DNA of 64,000 nucleotides from Pseudonocardia alaniniphila (lineage in GTDB: Bacteria > Actinomycetota > Actinomycetes > Mycobacteriales > Pseudonocardiaceae), in NCBI RefSeq assembly GCF_022524485.1, contig NZ_JAKXMK010000004.1, forward strand, positions 248,001-312,000, read 5' to 3'. Under the pieces are notes generated by a model. The model saw only the letters and a program-made list of their open reading frames with translations. It did not search any database and had not been told where the DNA came from. Shown piece after piece: positions 2,424 through 47,293 of this stretch (position 1 is its first letter; the number at the start of each line of letters is the position of its first letter). The position numbers and the translations under genes are program-made.

Positions 2424-3537
2424 GGTGGATGTGGTCGTAGTGGCTGCCGGTGACGTCGTTGGGGTCGTAGATTCCGCCGCCGGTGTAAGGCCGTCCCCAG
2501 CCGTTGGTGTCCGGTGTGTCGGGTGACCAGAACCGGCCTTGCCAGATCACGTACTTCACCCGAAGTGCAGCGGCGTGAGTTCGGAGCCAGGTCGCGAGTC
2601 GCCAGCCGTTCTGGAGGTCGTCCCCCTCGGGGAATTGTCCCGCGCTGGCCGGGAAGTAGTCGCAGGCAGTTCCGCGGGAATGGTCGCTGTCGGGGTTCCA
2701 TGCGTGTTCGTCCCAGCAGCCGGCGGAGCGGATCGGGGCGTCGGGGCCGGGCTTGCCGAGGGCGCGGATGATTTCGTCGTGGGCGTGGCGGGTGGCCGGA
2801 GTGAGGCACCGCCCGCCGGTGGGGTCAATGGCGGTGCAGGTGGTACTGGCTCCTGTGAATGATGTCGGTGCCGGGAGGTCGTTGATGGAGACCGGTCCGG
2901 CTGGGGCGCTGTATTGCTCGACGAGGGCGTGAACGTGGTCGATGTATTTCCTGATGAGCTCGATGCAGGAGGTGTCGCAGCCGGCCTCGCCTGGGTTCGG
3001 GATGCCGGTGGCTGAGCCGGTGAGGCGTCCGCATCCGGCGATGTGGCAGACCAGCATGCCGTCTAGCGGTGTCGTCGGTTTCCCGGTAGCGCGCAGGTGC
3101 GCGGCGGCGAGGCGCAGGTTGCGGCAGACCCAGGGGATCGCGAGGCGCAGGTGTTCCTTTGGCTGGAGGATGCTGGCATTGGGCGGCGGTGGGCTGCTGG
3201 TCCAGGCGGCGCCGCCGGCATCTCGCCAGTTCGTCTCGTTGAGTTGGTAGAGCCCGGCGGCGCCGCCGTTGCGGTCGGTACTGAACGCTGTCGGGTTCCA
3301 GCTGGACTCGGCTTGGACGTGGGCGATTACCCAGACCGGCGGGAGTTCGGGACAGCTCGTGCTGGTGATTGAGGTGATGATGTCGAGGGACTCAGCCGCC
3401 AGCGCTGGGACGGCCGCGGTGTTGACCCCGATCGACGATGCCGAGGTGCTCATGCCGCCCAGCAGGGCGCCGATGACGAGCAGGGGAACGAGCAGTGCCG
3501 CGACGAGGCCAGTGCCGACGATGGCAGCTGTGCGCAC
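2389..3537 (-). CDS. Membrane-anchored lytic transglycosylase with C-terminal M15-like domain (conjugation cell-wall hydrolase)
   Basis: A 382-residue protein with one N-terminal membrane segment (about residues 5-27). A lysozyme-like lytic transglycosylase domain follows at about 65-180: HVQAESSWNP holds the catalytic Glu and GAAGLYQLNETNW follows it. The C-terminal domain (about 235-380) contains SDHSRGTACDYFP and SHYDHIHLS. These match the H-x(6)-D and H-x-H metal-ligand pattern of M15-type peptidases and the ARB-07466-like domain common in actinobacterial conjugative elements. It would open peptidoglycan for the transfer channel, a VirB1-like role. It is the last gene of the leftward conjugation operon, 4 bases after the DUF4913 gene. 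Confidence 0.82.
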   Translation of the reverse strand: MRTAAIVGTGLVAALLVPLLVIGALLGGMSTSASSIGVNTAAVPALAAESLDIITSITSTSCPELPPVWVIAHVQAESSWNPTAFSTDRNGGAAGLYQLNETNWRDAGGAAWTSSPPPPNASILQPKEHLRLAIPWVCRNLRLAAAHLRATGKPTTPLDGMLVCHIAGCGRLTGSATGIPNPGEAGCDTSCIELIRKYIDHVHALVEQYSAPAGPVSINDLPAPTSFTGASTTCTAIDPTGGRCLTPATRHAHDEIIRALGKPGPDAPIRSAGCWDEHAWNPDSDHSRGTACDYFPASAGQFPEGDDLQNGWRLATWLRTHAAALRVKYVIWQGRFWSPDTPDTNGWGRPYTGGGIYDPNDVTGSHYDHIHLSILNGRGLAP

Positions 3538-32182: not shown

Positions 32183-32896
32183 TCAGAGGCCAGCCGGAAA
32201 CGTGTAGGGCTGGGGCGGGACGACCGGGCCTCCGACGTCGAGCTGGATCAGGGCGTGCGCGTCGAGCGGGATGGCGCGTGGGTCACCGTTCACCTGCTTC
32301 CCATTGACGAACGCGGTGACCGGCCCGGTCAGCGAGCCGACCTGGTTGGGCCCCAGCGGCTGGTGCCAGACGTCGAAAAAGTCCCCGAGCGTGAAGGTTC
32401 GCTGCACGGGGGACTCGACGTGGATCACGCCGGTCTCGTCGTGGGTGTGCAGCCAGTAGATGGCGCTGCCGGCGTCGACGAACGGCCCGTTCTGCGACGA
32501 CTCGAGCTGATAGGGCGGCACGATCCCGACTCCGTAGGGCACCAGCTTCTGCTGCCCGTTCACGTAGATCTGCAGGTGCGCGTGGATGTGGAAGACCAGC
32601 TGCTCGGTCGAGTTGGCCTCCACCCCGTCGACCGGAGCACCGTTGGCCTCCCCCGCGGTGGTCGCGACCAGGGCAGCATTGGTGTCCATCCGCGATGCCG
32701 ATGACGCCCCGGCGGCCGAAGGGCGGCTGGTCGTCACCGCGAGGATGGCGATCACCAGCACGATGACGAGAGCGCCGCCGCCACCGATCCACCAGCCCCA
32801 TGCCCGGGTACGGCGGGCGGAGGCCACCGATCCGCCTCGGGCCCGGGCTCGCGCCGAGGACGCAGCCGGATGTCGTTGACGGGCTCCCTTTCCCAT
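32183..32896 (-). CDS. Membrane-anchored histidine-rich extracytoplasmic protein, candidate copper-binding
   Basis: 237 residues. A basic cytoplasmic N-terminus, one membrane helix (WWIGGGGALVIVLVIAILAV, about 35-55), then an extracytoplasmic domain with FHIHAHLQIYVNGQ near 101 and WLHTHDETGVIHVES near 148. The H-x-H-x-H and H-x-H clusters look like metal ligands. The family is not recognised by name; similar His-rich proteins are annotated as hypothetical in actinobacteria. It is divergent from the copA side, and one of the four 26-bp palindromes lies 12 bases from its start codon, which ties it to the copper regulon. Confidence 0.65.
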   Translation of the reverse strand: MGKGARQRHPAASSARARARGGSVASARRTRAWGWWIGGGGALVIVLVIAILAVTTSRPSAAGASSASRMDTNAALVATTAGEANGAPVDGVEANSTEQLVFHIHAHLQIYVNGQQKLVPYGVGIVPPYQLESSQNGPFVDAGSAIYWLHTHDETGVIHVESPVQRTFTLGDFFDVWHQPLGPNQVGSLTGPVTAFVNGKQVNGDPRAIPLDAHALIQLDVGGPVVPPQPYTFPAGL

Positions 32897-32908
32897 ACAG
32901 CTATCATC

Positions 32909-32934
32909 CTACGGTCTCCGTACGGAGGCAGTAG
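32909..32934. promoter_or_regulatory. BlaI-type copper-regulon operator, site 1
   Basis: A 26-bp near-palindrome: core CTCCGTACGGAG, flanked by CTACGG-T on the left and G-CAGTAG on the right. It serves the His-rich protein gene (leftward) and the copA side (rightward). Confidence 0.65.
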
Positions 32935-33076
32935 ATGATGCTGTGCGTCACGTTATCCGCGCATGAGCCGCCCCGATGGAGGTGCGGTCGTAGGTTCGAA
33001 TGTATGCGCTCGCCGCAGCGTTCAGCCGTGACCCGGTCGACGACCACAGGGACTGCTGGCGGGGACAAGCTGGGCG

Positions 33077-33235
33077 ATGTTGCGCCGCCACGTGGAGAGG
33101 CGACCCAGGGCGGGCCGAATCGTGGAAATCGTCGAGGAGCTGGAGATTGTGAAGTCTGGCGAGCACGTGTTGCGGCCCCCGGTGGTGACGACGGGGGTGA
33201 CCTGGACGGAGAGCAGGCGCAGCTCTGATGACTGA
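33077..33235 (+). CDS. Small open frame overlapping the copA start (52 aa)
   Basis: The frame begins [20 protein letters not shown] and ends TESRRSSDD, overlapping copA by 8 bases. Its middle part ([23 protein letters not shown]) is charged and helix-forming, with codon use similar to neighbouring genes. It would be the first gene after the 32909 operator and could couple translation into copA. There is no clear ribosome binding site and no known family; it has no cysteines or Met/His clusters. A remnant of a longer regulator is another reading. Confidence 0.35.
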
Positions 33236-35480
33236 CACCGCCGAAACCCCGGTGACTGCTGCCCGAGGAGCCGGCTCCCCTGAGGCCACGGGTGGCACGC
33301 TGGATTTCCTGGTGAAGGGGATGACCTGTGGTTCGTGTGCCAACCGGGTGCAACGCGCGCTGCGTAAGCAGCCTGGAGTGGCTGGCGCGGATGTCAACTT
33401 CGCGACCGCGACTGCGCGGGTCCTGCTCGACGCCGACGGTGCTGACGCTGCGACGCTCGAGGCTGCCGTAGCGAAGGCGGGCTACGAGCTGCAGCGGCCC
33501 GACCTGCCAACGGATAGCGCTGACCGTGGCGACGACGGCAGGGCAGATGCCGATGAGGACGCGAGGCAGCGGTCGTGGTTGTGGCGGGTGCTCGTGGCGT
33601 GGCCGTTGGGCCTGGCGGTGATGGGCATCGGATTCTGGCCTGCTGCTGTGGACCAGGCGTGGGGTTCGTGGGTGCAGCTGGCGCTGGCGACGCCGGTGCA
33701 GTTCGTGGTCGGGTGGCCGTTCCTGCGCGAGGCGGGCCGCCGAGCCCGGGCGCGGTCGGCGAGCATGGACACCCTCGTCGCGCTCGGCACCCTGACCGCG
33801 TATGTGTTCTCGCTGGTCGAGCTGCTGCGCGGGGGGCACGCGCTCTATTTCGAGACGTCGTCGTTGCTGATTGCCTTCCTGATTCTGGGCCGCTACTTCG
33901 AGGCTCGAGCCAAGCGGCGCGCGGGCCGGGCGATGCGGGCGTTGCTCGAGCTGGGCGCGAAGGAAGCGCGACTCGTCCGTGACGGCGCCGAGGTGATGGT
34001 CCCGGCCGATCAGGTGCGGCCCGGGGACGTGTTGCGGGTGCGGCCGGGGGAGAAGGTTCCCACTGATGGCGAGGTGATCGACGGCGCGTCTGCTGTGGAC
34101 GAGTCGATGCTGACCGGCGAGTCGGTGCCGGTGGACAAGACCGTCGGATCCACCGTGGCCGGGGCGACGGTGAACACGAGCGGTGTGCTGACCGTTCGGG
34201 CGACCGCGGTCGGTCGGGACACCGCGTTGGCCCAGATCGCGGCGCTTGTCGCGGCCGCGCAGAGCGGCAAGGGGCAGGCCCAGCGTCTGGCCGACCGTGT
34301 CTCGGCGGTGTTCGTCCCCGCAGTGATGCTCATCGCCGCGGCCGCCTTCGCCGGGTGGTGGCTGATCGGCAGCGATCCACTCACCGGGTTGGTCGCGGCG
34401 GTGGCGGTGCTGATCGTGGCGTGCCCGTGCGCGCTCGCGTTGGCCACTCCGGTGGCGATCATGGCCGGGACCGGGCGCGGCGCGAGCCTGGGAATCCTGA
34501 TCAAGGGTGCGGAAGTGCTCGAACGCACCCGGAAGATCACCACGGTGGTGTTCGACAAGACCGGCACCCTGACCCGCGGCGAGATGAGCCTGATCCGCAC
34601 CCACGTCGGCGTCGGAATCGACGAGGCCGTACTCCTGCGCCGGGCGGGAGCGGTGGAGGCCGACAGCGAACACCCGATCGGCCGGGCCATCGCGGCTGCA
34701 GCTGGCAGGTCGGCTGGGGCGCTGCCGCAGGTGAGCAGATTCGCCGCGGTGGCCGGGCACGGCGTGCGGGCCGAGGTCGAGGGCGTGATGGTGTGGGTGG
34801 GACGGCGCAAGTTCCTCGCCGACGCCGGGCTCGTCCTGTCCGACGAGCTCGCCGACACCGCTGATCGGGTCGAGGCGCAGGGCCACACCGCCGTGTTCGT
34901 CGGCTGGGACGGCCATGTCCGTGGGGCGCTGGCCGTTGCCGACACCGTCAAGGACCGCGCCGCCGACACCGTCGCCGAGCTGCACCGGATGGGCCTGCGG
35001 GTCGCCATGATCACTGGTGACAACACCCGGACCGCCCAGGCAATTGCGCAGCAGGTGGGTATCGACACGGTGCTGGCCGAGGTGCTGCCCGCGGACAAAC
35101 AGTCCGAGGTGGCGCGGTTGCAGGCCACCGGGCAGGTCGTCGCGATGGTGGGCGACGGAGTCAACGACGCCCCCGCCCTGGTGGCCGCCGACCTGGGCAT
35201 CGCGCTGGGCACCGGCACAGATGTGGCCATCGAGTCCTCAGACCTGACGCTGATCCGCGGGGACGTGGCAGGAGTGCCGACCGCGATCCGACTCGCCCGC
35301 CGCACCTACCGCACGATCTGGCAGAACATCGGCTGGGCCTTCGTCTACAACCTGGCACTGATCCCGCTGGCCGCGTCCGGGCTGCTCAACCCGATCATCG
35401 CCGGCGCGGCGATGGGCTTCTCATCGGTCAGCGTGGTGGCCAACTCACTGCGGCTGCTGCGCTTCCGTGACCGCGGTTGA
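33228..35480 (+). CDS. copA: Copper-exporting P1B-type ATPase CopA
   Basis: A 750-residue transporter pumping Cu(I) out of the cytoplasm. An N-terminal HMA domain carries GMTCGSC at 31-37. Eight membrane helices include the ion-binding [12 protein letters not shown] near 400. TGES is in the actuator loop, [10 protein letters not shown] (phosphorylated Asp) near 443, SEHPIG near 483, and GDGVNDAPA near 643; the last helices hold YN and MGFSS(V)SVVANSLRL, all typical of Cu(I) ATPases. It lies downstream of the 26-bp operator at 32909. A second, CPH-type pump (copB) is at 49472-51556. Confidence 0.95.
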
Positions 35481-35672
35481 GGAGATAGTCCTGTTTCGGT
35501 TCCGCGGCGCAGCCGTCGGGGTGGATGGTGTGAAACTGCGAGGGCACGGCGAGCATTAGGCGCCCCAGATACTCGACGCCCGCTATGCCCAGCCGTGCAA
35601 CCACCCGACGGTAGGCGGGTCGCGGAAGGTCCGACGCGGTGGACGGGCCGTGGTGAAAGCCGGCCGCTGGGC

Positions 35673-36347
35673 TCAGTCGTCGTCCTCGTCTTCGTCGTCT
35701 TCGACGAGTTCGCCTTCCCAGGCTTCGCGGCCTTCGTGGATGGCGAAGGCGGCGATGATGAAGCCGGCGACAGGGTCGAGCCAGGCGGCGCCAGTAAGGG
35801 CATAGAGGCCGAGCCCGACGAGGGTGGAGATGCTGAGCAGGACACAGATCCGGGTTTCCGCGGCATCGGCGAGGATGAGCTTGTCGCCGCCGAGTTGTTC
35901 GCCGACGCGCCGCTTGGCGCGGGCGAGCAGCGGCATCACGACGATGGACGCGGCGAGCAGGACGAGTCCGACGATGGAGGTGTCGGGTTCCTCGCCGCCG
36001 ATCAGGCCGCGGATGCCTTCGATGATCACGTAGGCGGCGAGCACGAAGAACGTAACGGCCACGGCCTTGAGGGCCCAGCGTTCCTTGGCTTCATCGGCGA
36101 CACCGTGGCGCAGCCGGGCGGCGAGGCGGAGCCCGACCAGTACGGCGGAGGCGGACTCGATGCCGGAGTCGAAGCCGAACCCGACCAGGGAGACGAGCCC
36201 GGCCAGCAGCCCGGCGGTGATCGCGATGGCGCCTTCGACGACGTTGTAGGCAACGGTGAACTGTGCCAGCCGCAGTCCGCGGCGGGTGAGCCGTTCGGTC
36301 TGGTTGTCGGTCAGCTCGTTGGCGGGGGTCACGGGACGCTCGCTCAT
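35673..36347 (-). CDS. Cation diffusion facilitator family metal exporter
   Basis: A 224-residue membrane protein with six helices. The FGFDSGIESASAVLVGLRL segment near 57 and AWLDPVAGFIIAAFAIHEGREAW near 187 carry the acidic metal-site positions of CDF transporters (helices II and V). The usual cytoplasmic domain is missing and replaced by a short, very acidic tail (EDDEDEDDD). It is translated with the upstream CmtR-like repressor (ATGA overlap), so Cd(II), Pb(II) or Zn(II) are likely substrates. Confidence 0.8.
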   Translation of the reverse strand: MSERPVTPANELTDNQTERLTRRGLRLAQFTVAYNVVEGAIAITAGLLAGLVSLVGFGFDSGIESASAVLVGLRLAARLRHGVADEAKERWALKAVAVTFFVLAAYVIIEGIRGLIGGEEPDTSIVGLVLLAASIVVMPLLARAKRRVGEQLGGDKLILADAAETRICVLLSISTLVGLGLYALTGAAWLDPVAGFIIAAFAIHEGREAWEGELVEDDEDEDDD

Positions 36348-36760
36348 CGCGTGACCTCGTTCCGGCGGGAGGCGTCAGTGCTGGTGTCGGTCGGGCTGGG
36401 AGGGTGCTCGATGCCGTAGTTCGGGCACAGCGCCACCGCGTTGCCGGTAGCGGCGAGCAGGGTTTCGGCGGCGGCGAGCATGTCGAGCAGTTCCGGGCGG
36501 GCCAGGGAGTAGAACACCTGCCGGCCCTGCGCCCGCCCGACGACCAGGCCGCAGTCACGCAGGCAGGCCACGTGCGCGGACACCGTGGACTGGGCCAGGC
36601 CGAGCTCGCCGACCATGTCGGCCACCCGGGCTTCGCCGTCGGCGAGGCGGCGCACGATCGCCAATCGCGCGCGGTCGGACAGGCTGTGGAACAGCGCGAC
36701 CGCCGCGTCCACTCCGGACCCGGGACTGCTCGACGCGAGGCAACCCGCTGTGCTATTCAT
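36344..36760 (-). CDS. cmtR: CmtR-like ArsR-family Cd(II)/Pb(II) sensor
   Basis: A 138-residue winged-helix repressor. GLAQSTVSAHVACLRDCGLVVGR contains the C-x3-C pair in the recognition helix that binds Cd/Pb in CmtR, and a third Cys lies in the C-terminal ALCPNYG, again as in CmtR. It should control itself and the CDF exporter. The inverted repeat CATCGTCA...TGACGATG (36758-36795) spans its start codon and the divergent promoter of the methyltransferase gene. Confidence 0.82.
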   Translation of the reverse strand: MNSTAGCLASSSPGSGVDAAVALFHSLSDRARLAIVRRLADGEARVADMVGELGLAQSTVSAHVACLRDCGLVVGRAQGRQVFYSLARPELLDMLAAAETLLAATGNAVALCPNYGIEHPPSPTDTSTDASRRNEVTR

Positions 36761-36795
36761 CGTCACACATCGATGATAACCGGAGATTGACGATG
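36758..36795. promoter_or_regulatory. Inverted repeat between cmtR and the methyltransferase gene
   Basis: Perfect 8-base arms CATCGTCA and TGACGATG are 22 bases apart, with ATCGAT in the middle. This covers the whole 54-base divergent promoter, so one regulator could control both directions. Confidence 0.45.
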
Positions 36796-36814
36796 AAACG
36801 AAGGGTGGGGCGTC

Positions 36815-37462
36815 GTGCTGATGAACCGGGTGGAGACGGCGGTGGTGAACTCGCCGCCGCGGCGGTGGTTGCAGCGCTACGAAGCGCGGCTCCTGCACCG
36901 GCTCGGCGGGCCAGTCACCGCCGGACGGGTGCTGGAGCTGGGTTGTGGTCGGGGGTTCGGGACGCGGTTGATCCTGGATCGGTTCGGTGCACGGGAGGTG
37001 GATGCACTGGATCTGGACCCACGGATGGTGACCCGCGCACGGAGTCGGCTGGCGCCGCTCGGCAATCGCGCGCGGGTGGTGCGGGGCAGCGCCACCGACC
37101 TGCGGGCGGCGTTCGATCCCGGCGGCAGCGGGAGGGGCGGAGAGTCGGGCGGGTACGACGCGGTGTTCGACTTCGCGATCGTGCACCACGTGCCGGAGTG
37201 GCGGCATGCGGTTGCCGAGGTGGTGCGGGTGCTCAAGCCGGGCGGGCGGTTCTACTTCGACGAGGTCACCGCAGCCGCGCTCGCGACGCGGGGCTACCGG
37301 TGGCTGTTCGACCACCCCACCGAGGACCGGTTCACCGGCGAAGAGTTCGTCGCCGAGCTGCAACGCCAGGGCCTGCAGGTTCGCGGCTGGCGCACCTACC
37401 TGCGCGGGCACTACCTGCTCGGGGTGGCCGAACGCCCCCGCGGCGACGGGAAGTCCCGATGA
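36815..37462 (+). CDS. SAM-dependent class I methyltransferase
   Basis: A 215-residue methyltransferase. Motif I VLELGCGRGFGTRLIL is near 40, the acidic residue in VDALDLDPRMV near 65, and post motifs FDFAIVHHVPEWRHAVAEVVRVLKPGGRFYFDEV near 115-150 (UbiE-like). The substrate is unknown. It overlaps the following ligase-like gene by 4 bases (ATGA), so the two act together. GTG 36815 follows AAGGGTGGGG; ATG 36821 is an alternative. Confidence 0.82.
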   Translation: MLMNRVETAVVNSPPRRWLQRYEARLLHRLGGPVTAGRVLELGCGRGFGTRLILDRFGAREVDALDLDPRMVTRARSRLAPLGNRARVVRGSATDLRAAFDPGGSGRGGESGGYDAVFDFAIVHHVPEWRHAVAEVVRVLKPGGRFYFDEVTAAALATRGYRWLFDHPTEDRFTGEEFVAELQRQGLQVRGWRTYLRGHYLLGVAERPRGDGKSR

Positions 37463-38928
37463 TCGGCCCACCGGCCCAGGTTCCGGGCACCGCGATCGAC
37501 CTGCCCGCCCACGAGCGGGTCCAGCCCCTGGCGCTGCTGCTGGATGCCCGCCGCGCCTACCGCGGCGGACCGGCCGCCATCGCCGCCCGGCAGCGGGCCC
37601 GTCTGGCCGCCCAGGTGGACTACGCCCGCACCCGCTCACCGTTCTACCGGCAGCTCTACGCGGGCCTGCCGGAGCGGGTCGAGGACCCGCGGGTGCTGCC
37701 GGTCACCGGCAAGGCCGCGCTGATGGACCGGTTCGACGACTGGCTCACTGACCCGGCCGTCACCCTGCAGCGGGTGCAGGAGTTCGTGGCCGACCCCGCG
37801 CTGATCGGCCGGCCCTTCCACGGCGCCCACGCCGACTACACGGTGGCCACCACATCGGGCACCACCGGCACCCGCGGGCTGTTCCTGCTCGACGGCCGCG
37901 CCCTGGCGGTGGCCAGTGTCATCTTCGCCCGCGCGCTGTCGGGCTGGCTGCGCCCGGTCACCCTGCCCAGGGCCCTGCCGCGGCTAACCGCCAACCGTGG
38001 GCGACTCGCCCTGGTGGTCGCCACCGGCGGGCACTTCGCCTCCGCCGCCGCGGCCGCCCGCCTCGGCGCCGACCGCACTGGGGACGGCGGGCGCGCGGGC
38101 CGGACCCGGTTGTTCCCGGTCGCCACTCCGCTGCCTGAGCTGGTCGCCCAGCTCAACGCCTTTCAACCCGCGGTGCTCGCCCCCTACGCCACCACCGCGG
38201 CGCTGCTGGCCACCGAACAACAGGCCGGCAGGTTGCGCATCCGCCCGGCGCTGGTGGCGTTGGCCGCCGAGGGTCTTCCCGACGGGGAACCCGCGCGGAT
38301 CGCCGCCGCGTTCGGCGCGGTCGTCGGCAACTCATGGGCGGCCACCGAGTGCCCGTTCCTGTCCGAGAGCTGCCGGGAGGGCTGGCTGCACGTCAATGCC
38401 GACTGGGTGATCCTCGAACCCGTCGACGCCCACCACCGTCCCACCCCGCCCGGGGAGCAATCGCACACCGTGCTGGTCACCAACCTGGCCAACCGGGTCC
38501 AGCCGATCCTGCGCTACGACCTCGGTGACAGCGTCCTGCAGCGACCCGACCGCTGCGGCTGCGGGAACCCGCTACCCGCGTTCCGGGTTCAGGGCCGCAC
38601 AGCCGACCTGCTCACCTTCCCCAGCTCCTCTGCAGGGGAGAGCGTCACGCTCACCCCGCTGACCCTCTCGACCCGGCTCGACCGGCTCCCCGGGATCGCC
38701 CTCTTCCAGATCGAACAGACCGCACCGACCGAACTGCTGCTGCGCCTGCAACCCACGCCCGGCGCCGATCCCGAGCAGACCTGGAGGGCCGCACACCACG
38801 AGCTGGCAGATCTGCTCGCCACCAGTGGGCTGCGGCACGTCACCGTTCGCCGCGCCGACCACGGCCCGCAGCCGGCGACCGGCGGCAAGTACCGGCTCGT
38901 CCAGCCCCTTGCGTACTCAACGAGCTGA
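37459..38928 (+). CDS. PaaK-like adenylate-forming enzyme
   Basis: A 489-residue member of the phenylacetate-CoA ligase branch of AMP-forming enzymes. The phosphate loop TTSGTTGTRGLF is near 130, WAATECPFLSESC near 295 is the A5-type region, RYDLGDSV near 353 the conserved Asp, and CGCGNPLPAFRVQGRTADLLTF follows. It should activate a carboxylate as an adenylate, and perhaps transfer it to CoA. Paired with a methyltransferase beside metal-resistance genes, it may make a small metabolite or modify a lipid; the substrate cannot be read from the sequence. Confidence 0.78.
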   Translation: MIGPPAQVPGTAIDLPAHERVQPLALLLDARRAYRGGPAAIAARQRARLAAQVDYARTRSPFYRQLYAGLPERVEDPRVLPVTGKAALMDRFDDWLTDPAVTLQRVQEFVADPALIGRPFHGAHADYTVATTSGTTGTRGLFLLDGRALAVASVIFARALSGWLRPVTLPRALPRLTANRGRLALVVATGGHFASAAAAARLGADRTGDGGRAGRTRLFPVATPLPELVAQLNAFQPAVLAPYATTAALLATEQQAGRLRIRPALVALAAEGLPDGEPARIAAAFGAVVGNSWAATECPFLSESCREGWLHVNADWVILEPVDAHHRPTPPGEQSHTVLVTNLANRVQPILRYDLGDSVLQRPDRCGCGNPLPAFRVQGRTADLLTFPSSSAGESVTLTPLTLSTRLDRLPGIALFQIEQTAPTELLLRLQPTPGADPEQTWRAAHHELADLLATSGLRHVTVRRADHGPQPATGGKYRLVQPLAYSTS

Positions 38929-39028
38929 AATCGAACAACGCACGTCTCGGCATGACCGCACCGCCCCCCGCGCGCCCCGGTCTGAGAGAGGGGAGGAGGC
39001 AGTAGTCAGCCTGCGCGTGCGCGACCCG

Positions 39029-39997
39029 TCAGATCAGGGCGGCACACATCGGGGCCTGGGTGAAGACCAGCGCGGCCAGTACGGCCGGCCCCAGGAGCAG
39101 CGCCGCCACCGCAGCTGTTTGGGCAAGGCGGGCGCGGGCCGGATTGGGCGGAAACAGCAGCCGTTCCACACGGTCGGCCACACCGACTTTGGCTGCGCCG
39201 AGCCCCGGAACCGGGAGCGGGCTTGGCGCCGCGACACCGGGGGCGCACAGAGAGAGCAGCGCGTCGACGACACTGTCGCGGCCATGGCGGCGCGCGGCCT
39301 CGTCGTCGGCGGCCAGCTCGGCCAGCCGCGCGATCTCGCAGGCGCCTTCGGTGAACAACCGGCTGCCGGGCAGGATCCGCGCCAATGCCGCGGTGAAGGC
39401 CAGCAGCTGATGGTGTCGCCCGGTCAGATGGGCGCGTTCGTGGGCCATGACCGCGGCCAGCTGGGATGAGTTGAGCGCGTCGAGCGCCGAACGTGTGATC
39501 ACGATGGTGTCGGTCCGCCCGGGCAGGCAATAGACGCTGCGATGCGGAGCGTCCACGACGAGCGCGCCGTCGGGGCCGCGCGGAGTTCCGCGGGCGGCCA
39601 GCAGCGCGGCCTCAGCGTGGCGGCGGGTGTCCGCGCGGCTCCGGTGCAGGGCGAGCGCCACCCGGGCGCCGACCACCGCGATCCCTATGGCGGTGAGTGA
39701 GGCCGCGGCGGCCATCCCCGCTTGGACGATCCCGCCGCGATCTCCACCGGCCACTGCGGCGAGCTCGGTGACGCACCCGCCGACCGCCCCGTCGAGGTGA
39801 CCCGAGGTCTTCATCAACTCCCCGCCGAGCAGGCCCGCCGCTGCCGCCCACGACCCGAGCACACTGCCCATGGCAGCAATCCACGCCGCCATCCCCAGTC
39901 GCGGTGCGATCCCGGAACGTGTGGCTCGGACCAGCAGCGATGGCCCGATGACCATCACCACCACGGCATAGGCGAGAAAGCAGACGGCCAGGCTCAT
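39029..39997 (-). CDS. M56 family membrane metalloprotease (BlaR1-like, no sensor domain)
   Basis: A 322-residue integral-membrane zinc protease. Helices lie near 3-23, 35-55 and 95-115, then a cytoplasmic protease domain with HExxH (AVMAHERAHLTGRHHQLL, about 193-205) and the third ligand region LAADDEAARRHGRD, and a last helix near 295. BlaR1-type proteases cut BlaI repressors upon a signal. The penicillin-binding sensor domain is absent. It is fused translationally to blaI (ATGA overlap), and the regulon context suggests it responds to copper or envelope stress. Confidence 0.85.
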   Translation of the reverse strand: MSLAVCFLAYAVVVMVIGPSLLVRATRSGIAPRLGMAAWIAAMGSVLGSWAAAAGLLGGELMKTSGHLDGAVGGCVTELAAVAGGDRGGIVQAGMAAAASLTAIGIAVVGARVALALHRSRADTRRHAEAALLAARGTPRGPDGALVVDAPHRSVYCLPGRTDTIVITRSALDALNSSQLAAVMAHERAHLTGRHHQLLAFTAALARILPGSRLFTEGACEIARLAELAADDEAARRHGRDSVVDALLSLCAPGVAAPSPLPVPGLGAAKVGVADRVERLLFPPNPARARLAQTAAVAALLLGPAVLAALVFTQAPMCAALI

Positions 39998-40362
39998 CGC
40001 GGCGTTCCACCGGCGCGGCGGCCCAGGACCTGTTGCAGCCGGGTCAACTCGTCATCGGACATCTCACCGACGAAGTGGGTGAGCACCGCTTCGGAGTCGG
40101 TATCGGTGTCCAGGGCCTGGCGCATCAACGCGGCGGTGTGCTCGGCGTGGCTGACCACAGTGTGGAAGCGGTGGGCCTTCCCTTCCCGCACCCGGGTCAG
40201 GTGGCCCTTGCGGTACAGGTTGTCCATGGTGGACAGCACCGTCGTGTAGGCGATCGAGCGGTCCCGCTGCAGCTGCTCGAGCACCTCGCGCACCGTGCCC
40301 GACCCGCCCATGGCCCACAGCCGGTCCATCACGACCGCCTCCAGTTCACCGAACCCGCGCAT
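39994..40362 (-). CDS. BlaI/CopY-family winged-helix repressor
   Basis: A 122-residue repressor. ELEAVVMDRLWAMGGSGTVREVLEQL, SIAYTTVLSTMDNLYRKGHLTRVREGKAHRF is the winged helix of the BlaI/MecI/CopY family. The C-terminal part has the dimer and cleavage region, but no cysteine anywhere, unlike copper-sensing CopY with its CxC pairs. Metal sensing therefore probably goes through the adjacent M56 protease. The ATG has GGAGG 4 bases upstream. A 26-bp palindrome lies 50 bases upstream (40412-40437) and recurs before three other copper-linked promoters. Confidence 0.88.
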   Translation of the reverse strand: MRGFGELEAVVMDRLWAMGGSGTVREVLEQLQRDRSIAYTTVLSTMDNLYRKGHLTRVREGKAHRFHTVVSHAEHTAALMRQALDTDTDSEAVLTHFVGEMSDDELTRLQQVLGRRAGGTPR

Positions 40363-40411
40363 GCCACCTCCACGACATCGACCGCGCCCACCCGATCCAG
40401 CATAGATCGAG

Positions 40412-40437
40412 CTACTACCTCCGTACGGAGAGCGTAG
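40412..40437. promoter_or_regulatory. BlaI-type copper-regulon operator, site 2 (blaI autoregulation)
   Basis: Core CTCCGTACGGAG, with left flank CTACTAC and right flank AGCGTAG; it is the most diverged of the four copies. It lies between blaI (leftward) and the small SHOCT-like gene (rightward). Confidence 0.6.
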
Positions 40438-40528
40438 GTTCGGGGGTGTCGAGCCTGTCGACGATGCCACCCGCCGCCTTGAGGTTCGGGGCGTCGACCG
40501 ACAGAACGAGATCACAGATGAGGACGGG

Positions 40529-40783
40529 ATGATGTGCGGGATTTCGGTCGGCATGGGCCTGTCGGGACTCATGGTCATGTTGACGGTCGTGGCGGTGCTG
40601 GCACTGGTCGGCGTCTGGCTGGTCCGCGGGTTGCGCACCGAAGGTGGCGACGTGAACCGCCTCGGCACCGGCCCTGTGGACAGCGATCCCGCGCGCGAGT
40701 TGCTGCGCCGCCGCTTCGCCGCCGGCGAGATCGACGACGCGGAGTACGAGCGGCGTCTGTCCGCCCTCACCTGGTGGCGATAA
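40529..40783 (+). CDS. Small membrane protein with SHOCT domain
   Basis: An 84-residue protein with one N-terminal helix (LMVMLTVVAVLALVGVWLV) and a C-terminal SHOCT motif (DPARELLRRRFAAGEIDDAEYERRLSAL). SHOCT peptides are found beside many membrane and metal-related operons; the role is not known. Its position 91 bases after the blaI operator suggests membership in the regulon. Confidence 0.7.
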   Translation: MMCGISVGMGLSGLMVMLTVVAVLALVGVWLVRGLRTEGGDVNRLGTGPVDSDPARELLRRRFAAGEIDDAEYERRLSALTWWR

Positions 40784-40903
40784 CCCGAGGCGTGCCCGTC
40801 ATCTCACGCTTAGGTGTTCCAGCGGGGCATGGCGCGGCCCTGCGCGCACATCGGGAGCGAGTCGCGCTCGCCAGGACTAGTCGCCGTTGTCTCTGATCCG
40901 TTG

Positions 40904-40929
40904 CTACTGTCTCCGTACGTAGGCAGTAG
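40904..40929. promoter_or_regulatory. BlaI-type copper-regulon operator, site 3 (CcdA operon)
   Basis: Left arm CTACTG, right arm CAGTAG and core CTCCGTACGTAG, one base from the common core. It lies 48 bases upstream of the first CcdA gene. Confidence 0.65.
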
Positions 40930-40977
40930 ATGGGTCGTGGTGGAAGTGGGGCCGAATGGCTATAGGCGAGCGCGGCA

Positions 40978-41916
40978 ATGGGTGAGCTGCTGGTGGGGAC
41001 GACGCTGTTGGTGTCGTTTCTGGGTGGGGTGGTGGCGTTGCTGGCCCCATGTTGTGTGTCGGTGATGCTGCCCGCATACCTGGCGACCGGGTTCCGTCAC
41101 CGCGGCGGAGTGTTACCCGCGACGCTGGTCTTCGGCGGCGGGATCGCCACGGTGATCCTGCCCATCGGATTGGGCGCCGCCGCGCTGAGCAGGCTGTTCG
41201 TCAATCAGCACTTGGTCATCTACCTCATCGGTGGCGTCCTGATGGGCGTGGGCGGGGTCGCTGTGCTGGGCGGCCGGGCACTAAAGCTGCCCATGCCCGC
41301 CGGCCGAGGCGCGGCGGGTGGTGGCTTCGGGTCGGCGTACCTGCTGGGCGCGTTCTCGGGGATCGCCAGCGCCTGCTGCGCACCGGTGCTGGCCGGGGTC
41401 GCAGTGCTGGCCGGAGCAACGGCGTCGTTCCCCACCGCGCTCGCCATCGGGCTGACCTACGTGGCCGGCATGGTCGCGCCGCTGGCCGTTGCCGGGCTGT
41501 TGTGGGACCGCCGCCGCGACCGCGCGACCCGCATGCTCACTGCCCGCTCGGTACACCTGCAGCTCGGCGGCTGGTCACGGCGGCTGCCACTGGGCACGCT
41601 GGCCAGCGGACTGCTGATGATCGGCATGGGTGCGCTGAGCATCGTGGTCGCGTTCACCGGACCGGGCATGGACACCGGCGGGTGGCAGACCCGCTTCTCC
41701 GCCTGGCTGCAGCACATCGTCACCCTCACCACACACGCGCTGTCCTGGATGCCGGGCTGGGCGGTCGCAGTCGCACTGACCGCGGGTGTCGTCCTGCTGG
41801 CCCGCCATCTGCTGCGCGCACGACCCGCGGCGACGTGGACAGATCCCGGGCCCGCCGACCCGCAACTGCCCATGCCCTCGGCGGCCGATACGGCTACAGG
41901 AAAGGACACCCAGTGA
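40978..41916 (+). CDS. CcdA/DsbD-like membrane thiol-disulfide transporter
   Basis: A 312-residue protein with six to eight helices that moves reducing equivalents across the membrane. Paired cysteines lie in ALLAPCCVSVMLPAYLATG near 24 and in GIASACCAPVLAGVAVL near 131, the two CcdA half-sites. A final helix (AVAVALTAGVVLLARHLL) and a soluble tail follow. It is first in an operon of five thiol-redox genes, preceded by a 26-bp operator. It likely reduces the redoxins encoded next to it. Confidence 0.82.
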   Translation: MGELLVGTTLLVSFLGGVVALLAPCCVSVMLPAYLATGFRHRGGVLPATLVFGGGIATVILPIGLGAAALSRLFVNQHLVIYLIGGVLMGVGGVAVLGGRALKLPMPAGRGAAGGGFGSAYLLGAFSGIASACCAPVLAGVAVLAGATASFPTALAIGLTYVAGMVAPLAVAGLLWDRRRDRATRMLTARSVHLQLGGWSRRLPLGTLASGLLMIGMGALSIVVAFTGPGMDTGGWQTRFSAWLQHIVTLTTHALSWMPGWAVAVALTAGVVLLARHLLRARPAATWTDPGPADPQLPMPSAADTATGKDTQ

Positions 41917-42647
41917 GCGGGGACCGGTCGAAGGCCCGAACCAACACCGCAGCCAGATCTAAAACTGCCAAATCCGGAGCCAGCGGGTCGAGTAGGACGG
42001 CACTCCGTACGCCGCGCCGCTCCCCGCTCCCGATCGCAGTCGCGTTGGTAGCGGTGCTGGTTGTGGTAGCGCTGTTCGCCATCTACCGCGCGAACACCGG
42101 CACTGCCACGGGCGCAGCAAGTGACCGCTACGACGTCGGCTCGCCCGGGATTGGCGCGGTCGCCCCGGATTTCCTGCTGCCCAACGTGACCGCGCCCGCC
42201 GGCACGGGTGGGACGCCTGCGACCACGCGCCTGAGCGACTACCGCGGGAAGACGGTCCTGCTGTACTTCCACGAGGGGCTGGGCTGCCAGCCGTGCTGGG
42301 ATCAAATCCGCGACCTGCAGAAAGATCCCGCCGCCCTGGCCGCGATGGGAGCAGATCAGCTGCTGACGATCACCACCGGCCCCCAGGACCTCGTCGCGCA
42401 GAAGATGCACGACGACGGCCTGACCGAGCCCGCCCTCGTGGACTCCGACCTGCGCGTCTCCACCCAGTACCAGGCCAACCGGTACGGAATGATGGGCAGC
42501 TCAAGCGACGGGCACACCTTCGTGCTCGTCGGGCCCGACGGCATCATCCGGTGGCGCGCGGACTACGGCGGCCCGCCCCGGTTCACCATGTACGTGGCAC
42601 CTGAACAGCTGATCGCTGACGAGCGCGCAGCCCGAGCGGGCTCGTGA
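41913..42647 (+). CDS. Membrane-anchored peroxiredoxin/redoxin-like protein
   Basis: A 244-residue protein with one N-terminal helix (PLPIAVALVAVLVVVALFAIY) and an extracytoplasmic AhpC-TSA/redoxin domain: GAVAPDFLLPNV, TVLLYFHEGLGCQPCWDQIRDL (redox C-x-x-C) and GHTFVLVGPDGIIRWRADYGG. The GTG start overlaps the CcdA stop (GTGA). It would take electrons from CcdA to keep envelope proteins or copper sites reduced. Confidence 0.82.
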   Translation: MSGDRSKARTNTAARSKTAKSGASGSSRTALRTPRRSPLPIAVALVAVLVVVALFAIYRANTGTATGAASDRYDVGSPGIGAVAPDFLLPNVTAPAGTGGTPATTRLSDYRGKTVLLYFHEGLGCQPCWDQIRDLQKDPAALAAMGADQLLTITTGPQDLVAQKMHDDGLTEPALVDSDLRVSTQYQANRYGMMGSSSDGHTFVLVGPDGIIRWRADYGGPPRFTMYVAPEQLIADERAARAGS

Positions 42648-42949
42648 CCGCGATGCCCGGGCCGGTGACCAACGATCAGGAGATGACCGGGACAACGGTC
42701 GAAGTCACAGTCCTCACTCAACCCGACTGCCGGTTCTGCGAACTCGCCGCCGAGGTCCTGGCCCGGGTCGGGCGGGATCACCCGCTATCGGTGCGCCACA
42801 TCGATCTGGCCAGCCCCGACGGGCGCGATCTGGCCGCGCAACATGGCGTGCTGTTCGCCCCCGGGATCCTGCTCGACGGACAGATGTTCAGCTACGGGCG
42901 GCTCTCGGAACGCCGGCTGCGTCGCCACCTGACCCGGACCACACGGTGA
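42644..42949 (+). CDS. Small thioredoxin/glutaredoxin-like protein
   Basis: A 101-residue thioredoxin fold with the active site QPDCRFCELAAEVL (C-x-x-C) near 28 and the cis-Pro loop HGVLFAPGILLDGQMFSYGRLSE. There is no signal peptide, so it is probably cytoplasmic and may feed electrons to CcdA. It overlaps the redoxin gene by 4 bases (GTGA). Confidence 0.8.
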   Translation: MTAMPGPVTNDQEMTGTTVEVTVLTQPDCRFCELAAEVLARVGRDHPLSVRHIDLASPDGRDLAAQHGVLFAPGILLDGQMFSYGRLSERRLRRHLTRTTR

Positions 42950-42968
42950 CCCGCCGGGGCTCGGACCA

Positions 42969-43655
42969 GTGCGTCATCCGATAGCTTCGCGCCCGCGCAC
43001 GACAGGGTCCGGCTCTCCCTCTGCGACAGTGCGGCGGTGTCGGCTGGTGGTCGCGGCTGCGCTGCTCATTGTGACGTTAGCGGCATGCGCGACCAGCAAA
43101 AACGCTGTCGCCACCGGCGACGACTTCACCTTCGTCGCGCCCGGCGGCCAATCCCGCATCTTCTACGACCCGCCGGCCATCCGTGGGACCGTCCATGGGC
43201 TGTCGGGCGACAGCCTGCTTGAACCCGGCCACACGATCGGCATCGACGACTTCCCCGGCCAGGTTGTGGTGCTAAATGTCTGGGGCTCGTGGTGTGGCCC
43301 GTGCCGGGCGGAGGCCCCGGGGCTGGAGCAGACCTACGAGCAGACCCACGCCTCAGGGGTCACTCTGTTGGGCATCGACGTGCGCGACGACCGCGACGCC
43401 GCCGCCGACTTCGTCCGCGAGCACGGCATTACCTACCCATCGATCTTCGACAGCCCCTCTCGGTCCCTGTTCGCGCTGGAGGGCTTCCCCCGCAACACAG
43501 TGCCTTCCACCGTCGTTCTCGACCGCCGGCACCGGGTGGCCGCGGTGCTCCTCACTGCGCTGCGGGTGGCGGAGCTGATGCCCGTGGTTCAGCGGGTCGC
43601 CGCCGAACCCGCTGATCCACCACGGCCTGGACCGGTGAGCGGAGCGGCGCCGTGA
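42969..43655 (+). CDS. TlpA/ResA-like thiol-disulfide lipoprotein
   Basis: A 228-residue lipoprotein (signal VVAAALLIVTLAAC). The redoxin domain contains VVVLNVWGSWCGPCRAEAPGLEQTY with the WCGPC active site near 113, and NTVPSTVVLDRRHRVAAV with the cis-Pro. This is the ResA/CcsX type used in cytochrome c and copper-centre maturation. The next gene, a second CcdA, overlaps by 4 bases. Confidence 0.88.
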   Translation: MRHPIASRPRTTGSGSPSATVRRCRLVVAAALLIVTLAACATSKNAVATGDDFTFVAPGGQSRIFYDPPAIRGTVHGLSGDSLLEPGHTIGIDDFPGQVVVLNVWGSWCGPCRAEAPGLEQTYEQTHASGVTLLGIDVRDDRDAAADFVREHGITYPSIFDSPSRSLFALEGFPRNTVPSTVVLDRRHRVAAVLLTALRVAELMPVVQRVAAEPADPPRPGPVSGAAP

Positions 43656-44497
43656 ATGGCCTGACCGAGCTCGCCATCTCCGGCCCCCTGCTGATCGCGG
43701 TGCTGGTCGCGGCCGTCGCGGGCGCGGTGTCGTTCGCCTCCCCGTGCTGTATCCCGCTGGTCCCCGGCTACCTCGCCTACCTCGCCGGACTAGCCGGCGC
43801 CACGCCAAGCACCAATCCGCGCCCCTCCGCGGCGAGCATCGGCGGTGGAGGCTCGACCGGGGATCCTGGGCTCGGCGCCGCATCGCCGACGGTCCGGATA
43901 CGGCGGACCGAACGTGCCCGCCTGGTCGTCGCAGCGCTGCTGTTCGTCGCCGGGTTCACCGCAGTGTTCACGGCCGGGATCATGAGCGTGTTGGGACTGT
44001 CCGACCTGCTCGTGCTCAACGAGCAACTGCTCGAGCGCCTGGGCGGGGTCGTCACGATCGCGATGGGGTTCGCGTTCCTCGGGCTGATCCCACCACTGCA
44101 GCGCGACGTGCGGATCCACCACCGGCCCCAGCGCGGACTGTGGGGCGCCCCGGTGCTGGGCGCGGTATTCGGGCTGGGCTGGACCCCGTGCCTGGGACCC
44201 ACCCTCACCGGGGTCCTCGCCCTCGCCGCCGGCACCCAGGTCGGACCGACCACCCCGCGCGGGCTGCTGCTAGTGCTCGCCTACAGCCTCGGGCTCGGCC
44301 TGCCGTTCGTGGCGCTCGCCGTGGGCGCGGGCTGGGCGGTACGTGCCACCGGCTGGCTACGCCGCCACACCCGCATCATCCAACTCGCCGGCGGCGTGAT
44401 GCTCCTGGCAGTCGGGCTGCTGCTGGTCACCGGGCTGTGGGGGCTGTTCATCGCGTGGCTGCGCGCCCCCATCGGCGGCTTCACCACCCCGTTGTAA
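43652..44497 (+). CDS. ccdA: CcdA cytochrome c biogenesis-type membrane protein
   Basis: A 281-residue, six-helix CcdA. GAVSFASPCCIPLVPGYLAYLAGLAG near 25 and GAVFGLGWTPCLGPTLTGVLALA near 170 carry the two half-sites (PCC and PCLGPT). The loop between helices 1 and 2 is unusually long and glycine-rich. It differs from the CcdA at 40978, so the operon has two thiol shuttles, perhaps with different partners (redoxin and TlpA). Confidence 0.87.
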   Translation: MNGLTELAISGPLLIAVLVAAVAGAVSFASPCCIPLVPGYLAYLAGLAGATPSTNPRPSAASIGGGGSTGDPGLGAASPTVRIRRTERARLVVAALLFVAGFTAVFTAGIMSVLGLSDLLVLNEQLLERLGGVVTIAMGFAFLGLIPPLQRDVRIHHRPQRGLWGAPVLGAVFGLGWTPCLGPTLTGVLALAAGTQVGPTTPRGLLLVLAYSLGLGLPFVALAVGAGWAVRATGWLRRHTRIIQLAGGVMLLAVGLLLVTGLWGLFIAWLRAPIGGFTTPL

Positions 44498-44667
44498 AGG
44501 AGACGAGCGCGCCTCACGTGACCCTGGCCTGACCTGTGCCTGGAGCTGCGCGACGAGGTACCTCGTACGCCTCGCGGCCCGCTTATTCGCCACTGCCGAT
44601 CAATCCGTGCCAGCTCGGTCTCCGCGCAGGTGCGGGCGGGTGACATGGCGATCGGCCCGAGAACTAA

Positions 44668-44693
44668 CTACTGTCTCCGTACGGAGGCAGTAG
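44668..44693. promoter_or_regulatory. BlaI-type copper-regulon operator, site 4 (small proteins and CopCD)
   Basis: Arms CTACTG/CAGTAG around the core CTCCGTACGGAG, palindromic except for one T/G pair. It lies 43 bases upstream of the first small-protein gene and is the best copy of the motif. Confidence 0.68.
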
Positions 44694-44736: not shown

Positions 44737-44931
44737 ATGCAGTCGTTGCTGTACGGAGTGGCCGTACTCGCCTGTCCGGTCGGGATGGGCGTGATGATGT
44801 GGATGATGATGCGCGGGCAGCGCCGCAGGCCCGACGACGCCAGCGCCGAGCAGCAGCTCGCCGCGTTGCGCGCGGAGATCGACATCCTCAAGGCCGATCG
44901 GGCCGGGCAGTCCACATCAGGACATTCGTAG
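44737..44931 (+). CDS. Small methionine-rich membrane protein
   Basis: A 64-residue protein with one helix ([24 protein letters not shown]) rich in Met and with one Cys, followed by a helical, charged tail ([18 protein letters not shown]). The Met cluster in the membrane part could contact Cu(I). The family is not recognised. It is first behind operator site 4 and overlaps the next small gene by one base. Confidence 0.6.
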
Positions 44932-45203
44932 TGTCGGGCTGGTTCTCCGTGGTGATCGCCGTGTTGTTCTCTGGGGTGGTTGCGGTGCTGGTGATCTCCG
45001 CGGCGTACGTGTTCTGCGTGCGCCCCGTGCTCAGCGCGCGCAGGCACGGCCATGGCCGGGCGCGTGGATTCAGCGTGGGTACGGCCTGGACGGCCGAACC
45101 TGGCTGCCAGCTCATCGAGCGGCCCGCGGAGCGTGACGCTCCACTCGCCTACCAGCCTCATCATCGACACGAGATGCCAGCAGATGCGGAGCGGCGGCCC
45201 TGA
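44931..45203 (+). CDS. Small single-helix membrane protein of unknown function
   Basis: A 90-residue protein with one helix (WFSVVIAVLFSGVVAVLVISAAYVFCV) and a basic, His-containing tail (RRHGHGRARG, HHRHEMPADAERRP). The GTG start overlaps the upstream stop. It ends 11 bases before the copC-copD gene, so it is part of that operon. Confidence 0.55.
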   Translation: MSGWFSVVIAVLFSGVVAVLVISAAYVFCVRPVLSARRHGHGRARGFSVGTAWTAEPGCQLIERPAERDAPLAYQPHHRHEMPADAERRP

Positions 45204-45214
45204 GTCCGCAACTG

Positions 45215-47293
45215 ATGTCCACAGCAGCAGCCGATTTCTTCCCCGATAGTCGTCGCCGAACGCGCCGGCCGCGCAGCGTGTTACTCGGGCTGCTTGTTGC
45301 GCTGCTGTGGCTGGCGCTGCCCGCCCCCGCCGCGTCCGCGCACGCGTACCTGCTCGCGAGCACCCCACCTGACGGCTACGCGGTGCCCACTTCGCCAACC
45401 GCGCTGAGCCTGGACTTCGACCAATCCGTCACCATCGGCGCCACCCCGATGGAGCTGACCGATACCGCTGGCGCCCCCCATTCGGTTGGGCCCGCGATGC
45501 TGTCGCTGGGGGGACGACGGCTCTCGGCCCCGGTGCCTGCACAGTTGGCGAACGGGGGGTACCGGATCCGCTGGGAGGTCACCGCCGATGACGGCGATCT
45601 GGTGTCGGGAACCATCACCTTCACCGTCGGGCCCGGCGCGATCGCTCCCGCCGGCGGGTCCGGCGGCGCCGCGGTGGAGTCGCCGGTCGTGGTCGTAGCC
45701 CGCTGGGCACTGTTCGCCGGGCTGGCCCTTGCGCTGGGAGGGGTGGTCGGTGACCGGTTCACCGGCCGCGTGCTCCACGAGGTGGACGCCGACCGGGCCG
45801 CACGGCCACGGCCACTGACCATTGTCGGGGCCGGGCTGGGCGCGGTGGCCGCGGTCGTGCTCGCCGCCGCGCAAGTCGGGCTGAACCTGGGGCAGCTGGT
45901 CAGCACCGGGCCCGGGCGGGTGCTGGGGGTCGAGATCCTCGCGTTCGCCCTCACGGCTGCCCTCGCTGGTCTGGGCCGTCATCACCAGGGCCCGATCGTG
46001 CGGACCAGCGTCGCGGTCGCTCTGCTGGCCGTGGTGGCCGCCGAGGGGCTGCGGGCCCATCCGCATGAGGACAGCCCGATCCTCGGGACCGCGCTGACCA
46101 TCGCCCACCTGTTCGCCGCCGGCATCTGGATTGGCGCCCTCGTGCACGTGCTGCGCGTCGCCCACCGCTGGCGCGACCGGGTCGGCTGGACGCGGCTACT
46201 GATCCATGACTACGCCCGCCTGGCGCTGATCCTGGTCGCGGTGGTGGTCGCCACCGGCACCGCCGAAGCCATCATCGTGCTCCCCACACCCGCGTCACTG
46301 ATCACCACCGCATACGGGCTGGTGCTGCTGGGCAAAATCACCCTCGTCGCAGTGGTCCTCGCGATCGCCACGCTGGCGCGCCGCCGCCTACGGCACTCCG
46401 TCCGTGCCGCGGCGGGGCAACCGTTGGGGCGCGCTGTCCGGGTCGAGGCCGCCGGACTGGTCGGGGTCCTCGCCGCCACCGCGGTGCTCGTCTCCGTGAC
46501 GCCGGCTGGCCCCACCAGCACCGATCTCGCCGCGCCACCCCCGCCGGTCGGGCCGGTCGTGCCGGTCGGCACCCTCGCCGGGCAGATCACCGTGAACGCC
46601 AGCGCCAGCGCTGGGCAGCTCGTGATCCGCATGAGCAGCCCCGACCGTGACGACCTGGGCACCGACGACACCGGCCCCGCCCATACCGGCTCAGACAACA
46701 ACACCCCCGTTGTCGCTCAAGGTGGCGCCAACGGCGACGGCGCAGCGCCGGCGGACTACCGGATCAGCGCGCTGCTCACCGCACCAGGAGCCGCCCCTGC
46801 CGCACTCACGCTGCGGGGCTGCGGGCCGGGTTGTTTCACCAGCCCGGTGACCTGGCAGCCCGGCAACAACCAGCTACGGCTGACCGTCGCCGCAGCACCC
46901 TGGTCCGGCGGCGCCGCCACCCTGGACATCCCATGGCCGGCGACGAGCGACCCGACCCTGCTACCCGCCGTGCTGGTCGCCATGCGCGGGGTCAAGCAGA
47001 TGACCGTGCACCAGGCCGTAACCAGCAACTACACCGGCGACCCCGGCGCGGAAACCCCGTTGTCCTTCAGCGGTACGGACTACCTCGCTACTGAGCCCTA
47101 CGGCAGCGGCGGCGGCAAGCCAGTGATCCTGACCAGCCGACCCGAGGAGACCGAGATCGGACTCGGGTTCCCCGGCGGCATCGCCATCCGCCTGTCGCTA
47201 GGCCCCGATCATCGGATCCTGCACGAGGTGGCGACCACCCCCAACCACCTGATCACCTCCACGTTCGAATACCCACCCGACGCGGGGCCGTGA
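45215..47293 (+). CDS. CopC-CopD fusion copper resistance/uptake protein
   Basis: 692 residues. A signal peptide is followed by a CopC domain starting HAYLLASTPPDG, where the first mature His is a Cu(II) ligand; YRIRWEVTADDGDLVSGTITFTV follows near 115-137. The CopD membrane part (about 165-420) has HPHEDSPILGTALTIAHLFAAGIWIGALVHVLRVAHRW with conserved histidines. A long extracytoplasmic C-terminal domain (about 450-690), similar to YtkA-like domains, completes it. Such fusions handle envelope copper import or sequestration. A hairpin follows immediately. Confidence 0.87.
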   Translation: MSTAAADFFPDSRRRTRRPRSVLLGLLVALLWLALPAPAASAHAYLLASTPPDGYAVPTSPTALSLDFDQSVTIGATPMELTDTAGAPHSVGPAMLSLGGRRLSAPVPAQLANGGYRIRWEVTADDGDLVSGTITFTVGPGAIAPAGGSGGAAVESPVVVVARWALFAGLALALGGVVGDRFTGRVLHEVDADRAARPRPLTIVGAGLGAVAAVVLAAAQVGLNLGQLVSTGPGRVLGVEILAFALTAALAGLGRHHQGPIVRTSVAVALLAVVAAEGLRAHPHEDSPILGTALTIAHLFAAGIWIGALVHVLRVAHRWRDRVGWTRLLIHDYARLALILVAVVVATGTAEAIIVLPTPASLITTAYGLVLLGKITLVAVVLAIATLARRRLRHSVRAAAGQPLGRAVRVEAAGLVGVLAATAVLVSVTPAGPTSTDLAAPPPPVGPVVPVGTLAGQITVNASASAGQLVIRMSSPDRDDLGTDDTGPAHTGSDNNTPVVAQGGANGDGAAPADYRISALLTAPGAAPAALTLRGCGPGCFTSPVTWQPGNNQLRLTVAAAPWSGGAATLDIPWPATSDPTLLPAVLVAMRGVKQMTVHQAVTSNYTGDPGAETPLSFSGTDYLATEPYGSGGGKPVILTSRPEETEIGLGFPGGIAIRLSLGPDHRILHEVATTPNHLITSTFEYPPDAGP

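Follow-up and report, generated by a model that had tools for sequence, protein, structure and literature searches.

We examined a 64,000-nucleotide stretch of the Pseudonocardia alaniniphila genome (contig NZ_JAKXMK010000004.1, positions 248,001 to 312,000), called the window here, in which four copies of a 26-bp palindrome lie among copper and thiol-redox genes and beside the genes for a BlaI-family repressor and a BlaR1-like (M56) membrane protease. An earlier note on this DNA had described the cluster as a copper regulon run by that pair and had proposed scanning this and related genomes for the motif. The palindromes and the two regulatory genes are as follows (aa, amino acids).

32909-32934: putative operator copy 1, CTACGGTCTCCGTACGGAGGCAGTAG, 1 mismatch to CTACTGNCTCCGTACGGAGNCAGTAG; between the gene for a His-rich 237-aa protein (minus) and copA (plus)
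40412-40437: putative operator copy 2, CTACTACCTCCGTACGGAGAGCGTAG, 3 mismatches to CTACTGNCTCCGTACGGAGNCAGTAG; 49 bp upstream of the blaI start codon
40904-40929: putative operator copy 3, CTACTGTCTCCGTACGTAGGCAGTAG, 1 mismatch to CTACTGNCTCCGTACGGAGNCAGTAG; 48 bp upstream of ccdA1
44668-44693: putative operator copy 4, CTACTGTCTCCGTACGGAGGCAGTAG, 0 mismatches to CTACTGNCTCCGTACGGAGNCAGTAG; 43 bp upstream of the gene for a 64-aa Met-rich protein and CopC-CopD
39994-40362, minus: BlaI-family repressor, 122 aa; Pfam PF03965 (Penicillinase_R), 84.9 bits, cut-off 22.6
39029-39997, minus: BlaR1-like membrane metalloprotease without a sensor domain, 322 aa, with HERAH and ExxxD motifs

At up to three mismatches, CTACTGNCTCCGTACGGAGNCAGTAG occurs four times in the window, against 0.00 expected from 100 shuffles. 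Both the positions given in the earlier note and the placement of the sites upstream of the His-rich gene and copA, of blaI-M56, of the CcdA operon and of the small-protein/CopC-CopD operon were confirmed by the coordinates. The same four copies are the only matches at this tolerance in the whole genome (9,366,278 bases in 115 contigs, with an estimated contamination of 7.29%), and a 24-bp version of the pattern gave the same result. The 12-bp core CTCCGTACGGAG alone, at up to two mismatches, was found 5 times where 3.86 were expected, which is within chance; the outer TAC/GTA arms are thus needed. The copy at 40412 is the least regular of the four, and counterparts of it are present before blaI in relatives. 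For copy 1 the target is less certain than for the others, since the His-rich gene starts 12 bp away and copA 293 bp away. Of 26 aligned sites, 23 consist of two TAC-N7-GTA elements that overlap, their centres spaced 11 bp apart; because this spacing is about one helical turn, two BlaI dimers may sit side by side on each site. By our reading, a -10-like element appears to overlap the 3' end of the sites.

Association of the palindrome with blaI

The motif was searched in samples of 297 genomes from the family of Pseudonocardia and 397 from its order, with thresholds of our own choosing; the order-level sample includes family genomes again, and three of these have matches. The strict pattern, at up to three mismatches, was present in 6 of the 297 family genomes, and a degenerate pattern (STACTRYCTMSGTACSKAGRYAGTAS, up to two mismatches) yielded 26 sites in 13 of them; the reversed-pattern control gave 0 matches across all 297. 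For 24 of the 26 sites, an apparently intact blaI relative lies on the same contig at a distance of 50 bp to 11.9 kb (limit 12 kb). One of the other two (L108, G191:C394) adjoins a broken blaI-like stretch (2824-3070) with CcdA/TlpA genes beside it, and one (L109) sits on a contig of 9.9 kb that has CopA relatives but lacks blaI. The genome that holds L108 also has an apparently intact blaI-like copy on another contig. Outside the family, the order sample contributed 9 sites in 8 genomes. For eight of these sites a blaI relative is no more than about 4.2 kb away; around the ninth (L125), one CopA and one CopB relative are encoded within 10.1 kb.

BlaI relatives were also detected, at E 1e-15, in 65 of 72,556 plasmid records (36 from Rhodococcus, 10 from Streptomyces, 7 from Mycolicibacterium, 6 from Gordonia, and others), 31 of which are predicted to be mobilizable or conjugative. 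Six stretches, hand-picked by BlaI similarity and independently of the motif among 30 listed of these 65, all contain a site scoring 33-50, compared with at most 6.9 in reversed DNA. The underlying weight matrix was derived from 26 sites, namely the degenerate-pattern sites without G265:C158 (25 sites) and one site from L014; the scores of those sites are not independent of it, but plasmid and order-level genome scores are independent. Phage carriage of the protease was rejected, there being no match in 50,697 phage records. Across three families of the genome collection and the six plasmid stretches, the palindrome goes with this BlaI-M56 pair, and it very probably serves as the pair's operator.

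The recognition helix of the window BlaI is IAYTTVLSTMDNLYRK. Among 73 distinct BlaIs (six plasmid proteins included; the lineages are not independent), a strong site (score of at least 30) lies within 1.5 kb of 19 of the 52 with [ST]TM at the recognition-helix position and of 0 of the 18 with TV, a contrast that largely reflects one clade and not independent events. The host genome's other two BlaIs are of the TV kind. The 20-kb stretches of its other two blaI-M56 pairs (contigs C3 and C24; L059 and L060) hold no site with a score higher than 9, and these pairs were rejected as users of this operator.

Several observations weigh against a tight coupling of operator and repressor. BlaI relatives greatly outnumber the operator; at E ≤1e-20 they occur in 126 of 294 family genomes. 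Most mycobacterial relatives (about 50% identity) have weak site matches or none, and the same holds for L015 and L016. L014 is an exception, and G071 departs from the helix pattern in the opposite sense, as only a TV-type BlaI is nearby, 4.6 kb from its site. On the other hand, in five Mycolicibacterium loci a good site is found 3-5 kb from blaI. Separately, four operator-like sites were noted around blaI in a genome outside the family (L126, 8708-9998), one of which separates blaI from a CopZ-like domain plus M56.

Genes behind the sites

The remaining genes of the cluster are listed below.

32183-32896, minus: single-transmembrane protein of 237 aa containing HIHAH and HTHDE, possibly controlled by operator 1; no family above cut-off in Pfam or NCBIfam
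33228-35480, plus: CopA-type copper P1B ATPase with GMTCGSC and CPC, likewise possibly controlled by operator 1; NCBIfam TIGR01511, 565.8 bits, cut-off 397
36344-36763: ArsR, within the cluster
40529-40783, plus: 84-aa small membrane protein with a SHOCT end; Pfam SHOCT, 27.3 bits, cut-off 27
40978-41916, plus: by our reading a CcdA/DsbD-like membrane protein (ccdA1; APCC and ACCAP), no Pfam or NCBIfam match; orthologues lie behind sites
41913-42647, plus: membrane-anchored TlpA/AhpC-type thioredoxin-fold protein (CQPC); Pfam AhpC-TSA
42644-42949, plus: glutaredoxin-like protein; Pfam Glrx-like
42969-43655, plus: TlpA-like thiol-disulfide protein (CGPC); Pfam AhpC-TSA, Redoxin
43652-44497, plus: second CcdA; Pfam DsbD_TM, 27.6 bits, cut-off 27.1
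44737-44931, plus: 64-aa Met-rich small membrane protein, from its sequence; relatives lie behind sites
44931-45203, plus: small membrane protein of 90 aa whose tail contains His; L013/L058 and L054 have relatives
45215-47293, plus: CopC-CopD fusion; Pfam CopC, CopD

Loci in other genomes were annotated by similarity to the window proteins, an approach that misses genes without a relative in the window. Among the 13 motif-bearing family genomes, the ccdA1 operon stands behind a site in 11 (all except G276 and G265), often sharing that site with a divergent blaI, and a Met-rich small gene stands behind a site in 10; in G162, G037 and G071 such a gene precedes ccdA1 after the site. In L056, L106 and L107 the ccdA1 run closes with CopC-CopD. 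Within the family genomes, a copper ATPase shortly behind a site was seen only in the window and in G271, where (L102) the site is followed by CopC-CopD and then by a CopA 75% identical to that of the window. On the Rhodococcus opacus plasmid pROB01, blaI-M56 is divergent from a TlpA-TlpA-CcdA run, with multicopper oxidase, CopC, CopD and DUF305 genes farther on. A 24-kb stretch of Rhodococcus rhodochrous has one strong site, just before a TlpA-TlpA-CcdA-ResB-CcsB run and with a gene annotated as an iron-dependent repressor on its other side.

The commonest predicted targets are therefore blaI itself, the CcdA-TlpA thiol-redox operon and the Met-rich small membrane protein, with copper ATPases included only sometimes. 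Because thiol-redox and Met-rich genes prevail and CopA is rare, the core of the regulon would be envelope thiol redox plus copper handling. The designation copper/envelope-thiol regulon thus fits better than the term copper regulon.

Two further similarities were seen: a relative (41%) of the 237-aa His-rich protein is encoded beside CcdA2 in L106, and a relative of the 84-aa SHOCT protein adjoins a site in L057.

Repressor and protease

The window BlaI exceeds the gathering score of PF03965 and so belongs to the BlaI/MecI/CopY superfamily. It has zero cysteines and its partner no penicillin sensor, as the earlier note had held: Pfam detects no penicillin-binding domain in the protease, whose 322 residues end ten residues after a long C-terminal helix (286-312). 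The protease gene directly follows blaI, its ATG overlapping the blaI stop codon (ATGA). Residues H186, E187, H190, E227 and D231, which make up the gluzincin HExxH...ExxxD signature, are invariant in 34 of 34 aligned proteases. Pfam matched the window protein to M48 (35.9 bits, cut-off 20.3) and to no other peptidase model, M56 (PF05569) included; M56 was matched by 11 of the 34 relatives at E 0.01, and five plasmid relatives are annotated as M56.

Several features are shared with the BlaI-BlaR1 and MecI-MecR1 systems of Staphylococcus aureus, namely a winged-helix repressor, a membrane gluzincin protease whose transmembrane and protease core can be aligned structurally with that of BlaR1 (VIA-align), and a phenylalanine at the cleavage position. 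By alignment with MecI, Phe97 of the window BlaI corresponds to the P1' residue at which S. aureus BlaR1 cuts BlaI; it is invariant in 24 of 24 aligned BlaIs, and a simple Phe pattern is matched by 69 of the 73. Unlike the staphylococcal systems, however, the window system lacks the penicillin sensor and the operator core TACANNTGTA, and its predicted targets are copper and thiol-redox genes. CopY/CopR of Firmicutes likewise has the BlaI fold and represses copper genes from palindromic sites (binding being predicted in the window), but its CxC metal site is present in none of the 73 BlaIs and the window pair includes a partner protease. The CopY operator core KACANNYGTM occurs in 0 of the 26 sites, and the window BlaI scores 30.6 bits against the NCBIfam CopY/TcrY equivalog model, below the cut-off of 121.95. 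Direct metal sensing of the CopY type was rejected for BlaI, given the lack of cysteine, CxC and CopY operator core.

Another actinobacterial BlaI is that of Mycobacterium tuberculosis (Rv1846c). The closest solved relative of the window BlaI is 2g9w (E 7e-17), which we take to be this protein; in the alignment the recognition-helix residues differ, AVLQRL against STMDNL. Targets described for M. tuberculosis BlaI include Rv1303/ATP synthase genes and Rv2151c (PMC12565901, PMC7924339).

The window protease carries Cys75 in a predicted outer loop and Cys318 in its C-terminal tail. A cysteine in both places is found in 53 of 58 M56 relatives (61 distinct proteins minus L017, L025 and L076, set aside for length), any cysteine in the last 12 residues counting as a tail cysteine and L028 being scored as without a loop cysteine, though its N-terminus looks misread. 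In many mycobacterial copies the tail ends ...CHH. This conserved pair is a candidate copper or thiol sensor.

Proposed circuit and alternatives

We propose, with a probability of roughly 0.65, a circuit of BlaI operators, a copper or thiol signal and protease-driven derepression. When no signal is present, BlaI dimers would occupy the four sites, which presumably overlap promoters, and silence blaI-M56, the CcdA-TlpA-glutaredoxin operon, the small-protein/CopC-CopD operon and the His-rich gene, copA or both. Copper, or thiol oxidation caused by it, at the outer face of the membrane would then switch on the sensor-less protease, with Cys75 and Cys318 as the likeliest groups to receive the signal. 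Cleavage of BlaI next to Phe97 would release the repressor and allow expression until the signal is gone. Since BlaI lacks a CxC copper site and the protease lacks a penicillin sensor, derepression most plausibly proceeds through the protease. The earlier claim that the signal must pass through it is supported in this milder form, with copper as a candidate signal. More tentatively, a family of sensor-less BlaR1-like proteases may use the loop and tail cysteines to detect extracellular copper, or thiol oxidation driven by it, and cut a metal-blind BlaI, a proteolytic transmembrane copper response on Mycobacteriales plasmids and chromosomes.

The same circuit might instead answer to extracytoplasmic thiol/disulfide imbalance, or to a need for cytochrome maturation generally, with copper as only one cause. 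The predominance of CcdA, TlpA and glutaredoxin genes among the targets, the position of the strong R. rhodochrous site and the possibility that the M56 cysteines form a disulfide all point that way, but the loci repeatedly contain genes for CopA, CopC-CopD, Met-rich proteins, multicopper oxidase and DUF305, and we consider this version rather unlikely. Binding of the palindrome by a different regulator is very improbable. ArsR is encoded inside the cluster, yet a close relative of it accompanies only three site-bearing relatives (L056, L103, L111), as against BlaI at 24 of the 26 family sites. A CsoR-family repressor is encoded at G000:C33:103797-104042 (L133, L134), with Cys-His-Cys residues by our reading, but on a separate contig and with no relative of the searched window genes within about 5 kb; the search of the loci covered only regulators related to window genes. 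Least credible of all is that an ordinary BlaI-BlaR1 cell-wall or beta-lactam sensor landed by chance in a metal-resistance island: although the nearest catalytic domain downstream of the L041 site, described below, is an L,D-transpeptidase (YkuD), the protease has no penicillin sensor domain and no beta-lactamase or penicillin-binding protein family was found among the window proteins scanned.

BlaI-BlaR1 and CopY are each already known. Among the matches listed from open-licence papers, none described the combination of a metal-blind BlaI, a sensor-less protease, a 26-bp operator and copper/thiol genes, and none linked BlaI, a partner protease and copper genes. Pairs of BlaI and a sensor-less M56 protease recur in the actinobacterial loci examined, and we know of no signal assigned to them; the operator, its targets and the two-cysteine candidate sensor make that signal directly testable. 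If the proposed circuit is correct, one repressor fold would serve two copper routes, by metal binding in CopY and here by proteolysis from a membrane receptor.

In the Mycolicibacterium locus L041 (5137-6879), a frame encoding an L,D-transpeptidase domain (YkuD, 91.3 bits) begins about 440 bp downstream of the site CTACTACCTACGTACGTTGGCAGTAG. L,D-transpeptidases are inhibited by copper. A Met-rich DUF2933 small protein is encoded after this frame and blaI is 3-5 kb off, with an intervening frame that has no Pfam match. The same site sequence is present in L039, L043, L044 and L052.

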